Positions 9,043 through 11,921 of a DNA stretch of 41,914 bases are shown here, piece by piece. The number at the start of each line of letters is the position of its first letter. Positions within the stretch are counted from its first letter, which is position 1. The notes beneath the pieces were generated by a model. That model was not told the DNA's origin and ran no database searches. It saw only the letters and a list, made by a program, of their open reading frames with translations. The DNA is taken from contig NZ_QKYK01000040.1 of assembly GCF_003426815.1 (NCBI RefSeq), forward strand, positions 1-41,914, written 5' to 3'. Source of the DNA: Desertimonas flava. GTDB lineage: Bacteria; Actinomycetota; Acidimicrobiia; Acidimicrobiales; Ilumatobacteraceae. Made by a program: the position numbers and the translations under genes.

Positions 9043-9825
9043 TCACCCGACCAGACGCGGCAGGATCTCGCCGATCTGACCGCGCAGGACCGCGTCGGCC
9101 ACGAGATCCATCTCGGTCGGCTGGGCGTTGACGATGGCGATGCGGGCGCCGGCCCGGGCGGCGATCGGCACGCAGCTGGCCGCCGGGTAGACGCTCAGGG
9201 TGGAGCCGACGGCGAGCATCACGTCGCACTTCCGGCTCACCTCGAAGGCCCGGTCGATCACCTCCTCCACCAGCTGCTGGCCGAAGCTGATCGTGTCGCT
9301 CTTGAGCACACCACCGCAGACCAGGCACGGCGGGTCGGCCTCCCCGGCCCGGACCCGGGCGAGTGTCTCGATCATCGGCCGGCGGTCGCCGCACGACCAG
9401 CAGCGTGTCCACCGCATGGTGCCGTGCACCTCGATCACCCGATCGGGATCGTTGCCGGCCTCCTGGTGCAACTCGTCGACGTTCTGGGTGACGACGGCGA
9501 GGAGCTTGCTGCGTCGCTGCAGCCGGACGATCGCCCGATGACCGCTGTTCGGCTCCGCCGTCCAGGCCGGCGAGTCGAGTCGATCGAGCCACGCCATGCG
9601 CCGCACCTCGGGATCGGCGAGATAGTTCTGCAACGTCGCTGTCTTCTCGGCCGCCGGGTTCCGGGTCCACACGCCCTTGGGGCCGCGGAAGTCGGGAATC
9701 CCCGAATCGGTGCTGATCCCCGCGCCCGTGAGCACGACGACGCGCTCGGCCTCGTCGATCCACCCGGCGACCCTGCCGATGTCGTGGGTCAGCGCGGCGT
9801 CGTCACGGTCGTCGGCGTCGGTCAT
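9043..9825 (-). CDS. NAD-dependent protein deacylase, sirtuin (Sir2) family
   Basis: A 260-residue sirtuin that removes acyl groups from protein lysines using NAD+. Visible are the NAD loop GAGISTDSGIPDFRG (34-48), TQNVDELHQEAG (113-124), catalytic His134 in VHGT and a structural zinc site made by Cys142/Cys145 (CWSC) and Cys167/Cys170 (CLVC). GSTLSVYPA (207-215) and NAQPTEMD (233-240) complete the NAD pocket. The Tyr/Arg pair of SIRT5-type desuccinylases is not obvious, so deacetylase activity is more likely. It could reverse the lysine acetylation predicted for the GNAT fusion at 35327-37879. Confidence 0.93.
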   Translation of the reverse strand: MTDADDRDDAALTHDIGRVAGWIDEAERVVVLTGAGISTDSGIPDFRGPKGVWTRNPAAEKTATLQNYLADPEVRRMAWLDRLDSPAWTAEPNSGHRAIVRLQRRSKLLAVVTQNVDELHQEAGNDPDRVIEVHGTMRWTRCWSCGDRRPMIETLARVRAGEADPPCLVCGGVLKSDTISFGQQLVEEVIDRAFEVSRKCDVMLAVGSTLSVYPAASCVPIAARAGARIAIVNAQPTEMDLVADAVLRGQIGEILPRLVG

Positions 9826-9861
9826 GCCCCCAGTCTCGTCGGTCGATCGGTGCCGGCGGAC

Positions 9862-10479
9862 TCAGTTGCACAGCAGGCGGGCGACGGTGCTCAGCGACCG
9901 CTCCAGATCGGCCAGGCTGCGCTGTTCGTTGCGCACCCAGAACGCCACCTGCTCGGCCGAGAGCATGGCCAGCAGTGCTTCGGCCCGCAGGTCGGGGTCG
10001 GGCGCGCCGCCTTCGGCGAGCAGGCTCGTGCAGTACAGCACCCATGCCCCGTGGACGCCGGTGCTCTGACGGGCGAGCGGTGCGTTGGTCTCGGACATGA
10101 GCAGCAGGTCGAGCTGGGCGACGGCCAGCCGGAGGTAGGCGACGACGAAGGCCTCCAGGCGGTGGGCCGGCGGCGTTCGCCGGTCGAACGGCTTCCGGCC
10201 GCTCAGCAGCCGCTCCTGCAACTCGCGCTCGCGAGCGTCCAGCAGGGCGACGGCGAGGCCGCCCTTGTCGCCGAACCCGCGGTAGAGGGTGCCCTTGCCG
10301 ACGCCGGCCCGAGCGGCGACGGCATCCATCGTGACCGCGCCCACGCCGAGCTCGGCGAACAGCTCCTCGGCGGCGGCGAGCACACGCTCGCGGTTCCGTG
10401 CGGCATCCGCGCGCTGTCGCCCCCGCCGGGCACCGGCCGTCACGAAGTCGACGGGTGAGCCGTCGGCGGTGTCGGGCAT
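9862..10479 (-). CDS. TetR-family repressor of the divergent azoreductase
   Basis: A 205-residue TetR/AcrR-type regulator. An N-terminal helix-turn-helix (about 30-75: ERVLAAAEELFAELGVGAVTMDAVAARAGVGKGTLYRGFGDK) is followed by an all-helical ligand/dimer domain. The gene is preceded by a good Shine-Dalgarno (CAGGAG) and faces the azoreductase gene across 110 bp that hold two palindromic operators and a near-consensus promoter. Probable job: repress the azoreductase and itself, released by an electrophile or quinone-like ligand. The ligand is inferred only from the target. Confidence 0.92.
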   Translation of the reverse strand: MPDTADGSPVDFVTAGARRGRQRADAARNRERVLAAAEELFAELGVGAVTMDAVAARAGVGKGTLYRGFGDKGGLAVALLDARERELQERLLSGRKPFDRRTPPAHRLEAFVVAYLRLAVAQLDLLLMSETNAPLARQSTGVHGAWVLYCTSLLAEGGAPDPDLRAEALLAMLSAEQVAFWVRNEQRSLADLERSLSTVARLLCN

Positions 10480-10491
10480 GGCAACTCCTGG

Positions 10492-10520
10492 TTGATAAGC
10501 GGACTGTGGTCCGTTATGGT
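10492..10520 (+). promoter_or_regulatory. Promoter of the azoreductase gene
   Basis: TTGATA (10492-10497), a 17-nt spacer and TATGGT (10515-10520) fit a housekeeping sigma promoter pointing at the azoreductase. The first operator fills the spacer and the expected start site (about 10527) falls in the second operator. Bound repressor would block the polymerase. Confidence 0.7.
10497..10516. promoter_or_regulatory. TetR operator 1 (imperfect palindrome)
   Basis: AAGCGGACTGTGGTCCGTTA is an imperfect copy of the palindrome 28 bp downstream: the left half-site is identical and the right half differs at two of nine positions. It lies between the -35 and -10 boxes of the azoreductase promoter. Confidence 0.75.
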
Positions 10521-10524
10521 ACCA

Positions 10525-10544
10525 AAGCGGACTTCAGTCCGCTT
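10525..10544. promoter_or_regulatory. TetR operator 2 (perfect palindrome)
   Basis: AAGCGGACTTCAGTCCGCTT has two perfect 9-bp half-sites around a 2-bp centre. The centre-to-centre distance from operator 1 is 28 bp. It overlaps the predicted azoreductase start site, and lies upstream of the TetR gene. Confidence 0.82.
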
Positions 10545-10589
10545 ACACTCCTCCGATATCGATCCGATATCCATCCGAAAGGAACCGTC

Positions 10590-11243
10590 GTGAACCGACT
10601 TCTGCACATCTCCGCCTCGCCTCGCAGCGAGGCGTCCGTGACCCTCACCCTCGCCCGCTCGTTCCTCGATGGGGTGGCCGCGGCGAACCCCGACGTCGAG
10701 ATCGAGACGTGGGACCTGTGGGACGGCACCTTGCCGGCCTTCGGGCCCGCCGCCGCGGCATCGAAGATGACGGTGATCGCCGGACGGACGCCAACCGGCG
10801 ACGAGGCCGCCGCGTGGGAGGCGGCGCTCGCCGCGTTCGACCGGTTCGAACGCGCCGACACGTATCTGTTCAGCGTGCCGATGTGGAACATGACCGTGCC
10901 GTACATCCTCAAGCAGTTCATCGACGTCGTCTCCCAGCCCGGACGGCTGTTCACGTTCGACCCGGAGGCCGGCTACACGGGCCTGTTGTCGGGCAAGCGG
11001 GCCGCGGTCATCACGACGAGTGCCGTGTGGGGGCCAGGCCGAGGACCCGAGTTCGGCGCCAACCATCTGCACGACTACTTCCAAGGGTGGCTCGAGTGGG
11101 CCGGCATCAGCGAGGTCTCGACGTTCGGGTTCCACCCGAACATGGCGACCGCCGACGCCGAAGCGGCGTTGAAGCAAGCGCTCGTGGACGTCGGCGAGTT
11201 CTCCGCCCGATTCGCCGCCACCCGGCAGCCCCAACTCACCTGA
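10590..11243 (+). CDS. azoR: FMN-dependent NADH azoreductase/quinone reductase
   Basis: A 217-residue flavodoxin-like oxidoreductase of the AzoR/AcpD family, reducing azo compounds and quinones by two electrons with NADH. The phosphate loop is SASPRSEAS (8-16). The FMN isoalloxazine site is VPMWNMTVPYILKQFID (96-112), the family hallmark, followed by RLFTFDPEAGYTGLLSGKRA. The GTG start is supported by a Shine-Dalgarno (AAAGGAA) 5 nt upstream and by the family N-terminus. Length matches the family (about 200-215). It is controlled from the two-operator TetR region just upstream, so it is probably inducible by quinone or electrophile stress. Confidence 0.93.
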   Translation: MNRLLHISASPRSEASVTLTLARSFLDGVAAANPDVEIETWDLWDGTLPAFGPAAAASKMTVIAGRTPTGDEAAAWEAALAAFDRFERADTYLFSVPMWNMTVPYILKQFIDVVSQPGRLFTFDPEAGYTGLLSGKRAAVITTSAVWGPGRGPEFGANHLHDYFQGWLEWAGISEVSTFGFHPNMATADAEAALKQALVDVGEFSARFAATRQPQLT

Positions 11244-11345
11244 ACCGCGCACCACGCAGATTTCTTTTCCGTTTTGCCACCCCCGCCGCGCCCCGGGGAG
11301 GCAACCGGGCATCCCCCTCCGAACGACCAGTCCGACGGAGGAGCC

Positions 11346-11921
11346 ATGCAGCCAACCCCATCGATCACCGCGAGCGCGCCGACCGGCGGGCGGCGCCTCG
11401 CCATTCCCCCACCCCCGACCCGCCGTCCCCTCGCCCCGGGCGAGCAACCCGCCGCGCCAGAGCCGCAGGGCCCGCTGGCGGCGGCTCCCGACTGCGTCAC
11501 GATCACCCCGTGGATCGATCCGGTCGTCGACGAGTCCGGCCACGATCCGCGTTCGAGCTACGTCGAGCGCTTCTGGCTGTCCACGCTCGGACCGACCGCC
11601 ACCTGGCTGTTGCGCCGGCTCGTCGACGGATTCGACGAGCATCCCGACGGCTACATCCTCGACCTCGCGGTCACGGCGCAGTCGCTCGGGCTCACCTACA
11701 GCCGGGGTCAGTCGAGCCCCTTCGCCAAGGCGTTCCACCGCTGCGTGATGTTCGGGCTCGCCCATCACTGCTCCACCGGCTACGTCGTCCGGCGGCGGGT
11801 ACCGGACGTGGCCCGGCGCCACCTCCTCCGCATGCCCGACGAGCTGCGCCTGGCCCACGAGGCGTGGCTCGCCGAGTCGGCGACGTGCCCGGCGGGTGTG
11901 TCGGCCCTCGACACGGGCTGA
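11346..11921 (+). CDS. Actinobacterial conserved protein, winged-helix-like
   Basis: A 191-residue protein of unknown function. Residues 1-60 are Pro-rich and probably disordered. Residues 70-180 (WLSTLGPTATWLLRRLVDGF, SLGLTYSRGQSSPFAKAFHRC, FGLAHH, VVRRRVPDVARRHLLRMPDEL) resemble an actinobacterial family of unknown role whose helix spacing, with Arg-rich turns, resembles a DNA-binding winged helix. That fold is an inference. The ATG has a strong Shine-Dalgarno (GGAGGA, 5 nt away), which makes it preferable to the ATG at 11274. It is isolated from its neighbours by about 100 nt on each side. Confidence 0.75.
   Translation: MQPTPSITASAPTGGRRLAIPPPPTRRPLAPGEQPAAPEPQGPLAAAPDCVTITPWIDPVVDESGHDPRSSYVERFWLSTLGPTATWLLRRLVDGFDEHPDGYILDLAVTAQSLGLTYSRGQSSPFAKAFHRCVMFGLAHHCSTGYVVRRRVPDVARRHLLRMPDELRLAHEAWLAESATCPAGVSALDTG

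Follow-up and report, generated by a model that had tools for sequence, protein, structure and literature searches.

Two predicted operators of a divergent TetR-family regulator over the promoter of an azoreductase-like gene in Desertimonas flava

The divergent gene pair

The window, the whole stretch of 41,914 nucleotides from Desertimonas flava that was analysed, contains a divergent gene pair separated by a 110-bp gap (10480-10589) between an ATG and a GTG start codon. On the minus strand, tetR (9862..10479) encodes a TetR-family regulator of 205 aa. The N-terminal TetR helix-turn-helix domain is present (PF00440 TetR_N, 54.8 bits against a cut-off of 24, E 8.2e-15), and the recognition helix reads VGKGTLYRG with a lysine at residue 62. 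For the group to which this regulator belongs no solved structure was recognised, the top matches spanning mainly the DNA-binding part. The next gene after tetR on its own strand, immediately downstream, belongs to the Sir2 family (9043-9825, minus strand).

On the plus strand, the gene named azoR in the initial annotation (10590..11243) starts with GTG and encodes 217 aa. Its product matches PF02525 Flavodoxin_2 with 137.1 bits (cut-off 27, E 8e-40). Among solved structures it is closest to azoreductases and FMN-dependent quinone oxidoreductases, with the FMN-dependent NADH-azoreductase 3w78 at the top (E 4.7e-18). The product falls below the NCBIfam azoreductase cut-offs (PRK13556, 75.5 bits against 188; PRK13555, 53.3 against 432; PRK01355, 27.5 against 143). 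The name azoR is therefore kept loosely for a Flavodoxin_2 protein. Judged by these matches, the product is an azoreductase-like, flavodoxin-fold relative of the FMN-dependent NADH-azoreductases and quinone reductases and not AzoR proper.

Palindromes and promoter signals between the genes

The intergenic region holds two palindromes. The word AAGCGGACTTCAGTCCGCTT (10525..10544; predicted operator 2) is perfectly palindromic, with 9-nt arms on either side of a 2-bp centre, 20 bp in total. The second, AAGCGGACTGTGGTCCGTTA (10497..10516; predicted operator 1), has the core CGGACTGTGGTCCG, which is the operator type of the regulator's relatives described below. The start-to-start spacing of the two is 28 bp. 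The perfect copy, the second copy, the spacing and the divergent 110-bp gap are as initially annotated; the second copy has three mismatches over the 18 specified positions, and the earlier count of two is obtained when the outermost bases are omitted. Allowing up to three mismatches, the palindrome pattern occurred twice in the window and was absent from 100 dinucleotide shuffles of it.

A promoter scan of positions 9800-11400 on both strands returned a single promoter-like site, with a predicted azoR -35 of TTGATA (10492..10497, plus strand) and a predicted -10 of TATGGT (10515..10520, plus strand). The two elements are 17 nt apart and match 9 of 12 consensus positions; the mean over 50 shuffles was 0.0. 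The description of this promoter as near-consensus was generous at 9 of 12 positions, although the promoter-like match itself is present. Transcription of azoR would be expected to start near 10527. Operator 1 thus lies in the spacer between the -35 and -10 elements and operator 2 over the predicted start site, and this part of the earlier description agrees with both the sequence and the scan. Likely ribosome-binding sites were read by eye for azoR (AAAGGA, 10578..10583, plus strand) and for tetR (AGGAG, 10485..10489, minus strand).

A possible extended -10 of tetR, TGGTACCAT (10516..10524, minus strand), was also read by eye and overlaps the azoR -10. The putative tetR start from this element would lie near 10509, within operator 1. 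The scan of 9800-11400 did not return this element, and a good -35 is absent too. No terminator-like sites were found in the same interval.

The operator type in relatives of the regulator

Upstream stretches of relatives were collected in two sets, with 400 bp read upstream of the codon for residue 20 at each locus. The first 67 loci comprise the window, one locus from the genome G019, 29 from a sample of the phylum, L070, L091, L121 (from a sample of the class), 29 from the family of the genome G527 and four records from a plasmid collection. A second set of 60 newly fetched loci brings the total to 127. The window, L070 and L091 are circular, having been fetched by the operator itself, so totals are also given without them. 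Many loci come from related genomes and are not independent, yet 126 of the 127 upstream stretches differ.

The pattern CGGAC-N4/5-GTCCG, matched at all ten positions, was found upstream of the TetR relative in 42 of the first 67 loci (39 of 64 without the circular three). It was found in none of the 67 downstream stretches, in none of the 67 reversed upstream stretches and in 0.39% of 3350 base shuffles. A looser test required GGA half-sites with an equal fifth base and A/T flanks, and was blind to the identity of the fifth base. By this test a site was present in 53 of the first 67 loci and 49 of the 60 new ones, against 11 of 2540 base shuffles. Overall, 102 of the 127 loci have a site upstream of the regulator (99 of 124 without the circular three). 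Most often the sites come in twos (73 of 127 loci); 27 loci have one site and 2 have three. Paired sites are 24-46 bp apart in 72 of the 73 loci, with no single preferred spacing. Among the 25 loci without a site, 15 have a lysine at residue 62.

A promoter match of at least 8 of 12 in the direction of the partner gene was given by only 30 of the 102 loci with sites, so the operator-over-promoter layout is recognisable in a minority. At a match of at least 9 of 12, nine loci remained, and the operator fills the spacer in eight of them, counting the window (shuffled flanks gave 1.54 and 0.29, respectively). The predicted operator-in-spacer layout of the window is therefore repeated in at least seven other loci. 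In several promoter-matching loci the operator overlaps the -35 instead.

The identity of base 5 of the half-site goes with one residue of the recognition helix. In the window's regulator (P0001) this is residue 62, the fourth of GVGKGT, and we take it to correspond to the base-contacting Gln38 of TetR(Tn10). A lysine or arginine at this position was accompanied by C at base 5 in all 94 such loci with a site (47 of 47 in each set), while valine, alanine or proline was accompanied by another base in 8 of 8 loci (A in six, G in one and T in one). When all GGA half-sites were counted with no flank filter, lysine went with C in 156 of 180 and arginine in 15 of 16; A was found with valine in 13 of 16, with alanine in 4 of 4 and with proline in 3 of 6. 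The loci with threonine (six) or methionine (one) at residue 62, and two without a readable helix, have no site. A stricter forecast drawn from the first set, that valine pairs with A, failed in the second, where three valine loci had G, T and no site. A tree built with the helix masked yields just three pairs that are independent for residue 62, of which one stands on supported branches and agrees with the rule; the association could therefore be due to descent.

What lies on the other side of the operators in these relatives? From 109 candidate divergent ORFs, 74 were picked as partners at 66 of the first 67 loci, eight of which gave two. In Pfam searches of the 74, 24 matched FMN_red, 21 Flavodoxin_2 and 20 YceI; the FMN_red and Flavodoxin_2 sets overlap, and the window is counted in both. 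The partner at L037 is azoreductase-like and 46% identical to that of the window over 182 residues, and this locus has two variant operators of the CGGAA type. The exact operator 2 word also adjoins TetR relatives in L070, beside a divergent ORF read as a quinone-reductase-type dehydrogenase, and in L091, beside an ORF read as an FMN reductase. The partners of the nearest relatives on the tree differ, being a rhodanese (L034, L152), an FAD-binding protein (L151) or none recognised (L036, L154). The common thread of the partners may be the redox chemistry of quinone-like compounds, with some partners falling outside it.

Two arrangements were observed in passing. In the G019 locus (L005, G019:C212; 201-1309 and 1441-2085), the TetR gene is divergent from ORFs read as YceI and then FMN reductase; the operator is a CGGAA variant, and valine takes the place of residue 62. 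In L049, where the TetR relative has two operators, the divergent side (464-1506) encodes YceI and, after it, an azoreductase-like stretch (41% over 76 residues).

The proposed switch and its alternatives

The locus very probably forms a divergent, autoregulated TetR switch in which two operators lie over the azoR promoter and a small ligand releases the repressor. The initial proposal of two operators of the divergent TetR over this promoter gains support from the relatives, in which the palindrome type accompanies the regulator in 102 of 127 loci and is paired in 73, and from the association between helix and base. We infer binding, repression, autoregulation and a ligand. A TetR dimer would bind each of the two 20-bp palindromes. 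With operator 1 in the -35/-10 spacer and operator 2 over the start, both would block RNA polymerase at azoR; if there is an overlapping tetR promoter, they would shut it off as well. A small ligand would then free TetR from the DNA, and the azoR-like reductase would be switched on. Support is good for the azoR side of the switch, and for the tetR side it consists of the extended -10 read by eye.

The palindromes could instead be TetR sites that serve mainly for autoregulation of tetR, with azoR expressed from another promoter or only weakly controlled. Both sites do cover the possible extended -10 of tetR as well, and 72 of the 102 relatives' loci with sites show no partner-direction promoter match of at least 8 of 12. 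However, the one promoter that the scan returned is that of azoR, both sites overlap this promoter or its start, and flavin reductases or YceI recur as the divergent partner in relatives. Control of tetR as the main role is thus unlikely.

It is more improbable still that a different regulator of the genome binds the palindromes. Further TetR-like proteins are encoded there (15 of the 15 candidates scored, of 107 first-look candidates), but across the phylum the site type accompanies relatives of the adjacent TetR and goes with a residue of that protein's recognition helix. Nor is the site in excess in the window's own genome (6.2 Mb, 73 contigs), where the full core CGGAC-N4-GTCCG has 23 occurrences and the reversed control 21. 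The 20-bp word, with up to three mismatches, has one further site in the genome, as does its reversed-pattern control (one), and this site sits inside a long ORF read as a molybdenum hydroxylase-like gene. For the core with inner Y/R (CGGACYNNRGTCCG) there are three occurrences, and for its control eight; two of the three are the window's operators, and the third (C21:7656) is without A/T flanks. The genome search suggested in the initial annotation as a way to the rest of the regulon thus led to no further members: all three pattern counts are about equal to or below their controls. The predicted switch looks local within the genome, and a weaker regulon may lie beyond the reach of pattern counts.

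The word had also been thought specific to the TetR-azoR pair. It is near-unique within the genome, but this idea is rejected, as the relatives' sites adjoin other flavin or quinone reductases or YceI. A scan for the exact word returned 58 stretches, of which only L070 and L091 adjoin a relative of the window's TetR (tblastn, E up to 0.01); these are also the sole two with actinobacterial titles. A TetR neighbour could be missed in 10 of the 58, since the site there is less than 700 bp from the end of the stretch. Chryseobacterium contributes 25 of the 58 (including L073, L075, L077, L099, L104, L106 and L115), in which the word often carries a one-sided ctattgat/atcaatag extension. No relative of the window's TetR was found in these Chryseobacterium stretches, aside from a weak 54-residue match about 415 bp from the site in L104. 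The Chryseobacterium copies are probably a terminator or dispersed repeat.

The least probable explanation is that the inverted repeat of the window, too, is a terminator, RNA hairpin or dispersed repeat placed here by chance. In its favour, 56 of the scanned stretches contain the exact word but gave no close TetR relative next to it, and many of the copies look terminator- or repeat-like by eye. Against it, no terminator-like site was found in 9800-11400, the palindromes lie upstream of both start codons and the site type is conserved in relatives.

The ligand and known systems

In the proposed TetR switch, the ligand would most plausibly be one of the compounds that the flavoenzyme handles, quinone-like, azo-like or otherwise electrophile-like. 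NemR of E. coli is a TetR-type, cysteine-based electrophile sensor that regulates a flavin reductase. On the proposed reading the window's regulator is likewise a TetR repressor of a flavoenzyme, but its operator differs from that of NemR, and its group has no conserved cysteine from residue 20 on, the part covered by the 127 aligned rows. Cys150 of the window's protein is found in no other of the 127 rows and Cys204 in 12, and the highest cysteine column, residue 48, reaches 22. Thiol sensing in the manner of NemR is therefore unlikely. The ligand may also differ from that of the relatives, since two otherwise well-kept features are changed in the window's TetR: the near-fixed PPLGPG stretch (95-100) reads RKPFDR, and residue 149, a histidine in 119 of 127 rows, is a tyrosine.

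TetR-tetA, QacR and TtgR are divergent autoregulated repressors of the TetR/AcrR family. The window resembles them in having the regulator beside its presumed target, putative palindromic operators over promoters and a TetR_N domain. It differs in the operator word and in the target, which is an efflux pump in those systems and a flavodoxin-type reductase here. Divergent TetR switches that act on detoxification-type genes are already a known kind, and the window adds a compact, testable switch whose mechanism would be familiar.

The nearest functional parallel seen is MgxR (Bxe_B3018) of Burkholderia xenovorans, likened here by function and neighbour and not by kinship. According to its published account, MgxR is a TetR-family regulator with a YceI-family neighbour (Bxe_B3019), methylglyoxal as effector and the operator C(T/G)AGAA(T/C)GATC(G/A)TTCT(C/A)C (PMC4349456). 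The window's TetR would likewise be a regulator of a small stress-type gene, YceI is also a frequent partner of its relatives, and the MgxR operator is unlike the CGGAC-N4-GTCCG of the window's group.

Among the open-access papers listed, no title or abstract opening dealt with a CGGAC-N4/5-GTCCG operator or a TetR-azoR pair of this kind. Any novelty would lie in the TetR group, with its own operator, a paired layout, reductase or YceI partners and a helix rule. As a tentative proposal, possible but short of probable, this would be an apparently undescribed actinobacterial TetR group in which paired CGGAC-N4/5-GTCCG operators guard flavodoxin-type quinone or azo reductases and YceI, sensing of quinone- or isoprenoid-like compounds is cysteine-free, and residue 62 (lysine or arginine, or not) sets C at base 5. 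The relatives would give a predicted operator, a partner class and a one-residue recognition rule for a large, unnamed actinobacterial TetR group. The TetR-azoR pair could serve as a sensor should its ligand prove to be a quinone or azo compound.

Spread of the regulator

By similarity search, the regulator has few close relatives near home. In a sample of 200 genomes of the family, G019 was the sole genome below 1e-20 besides the window's own among the matches listed. In the class sample, relatives below 1e-15 were found in 2 of 395 genomes, one being the window's. Relatives below 1e-20 were found in 45 of 396 genomes of the phylum sample, the window's own counted, and in 74 of 146 of the family of G527, a scattered distribution that may reflect gain by transfer.
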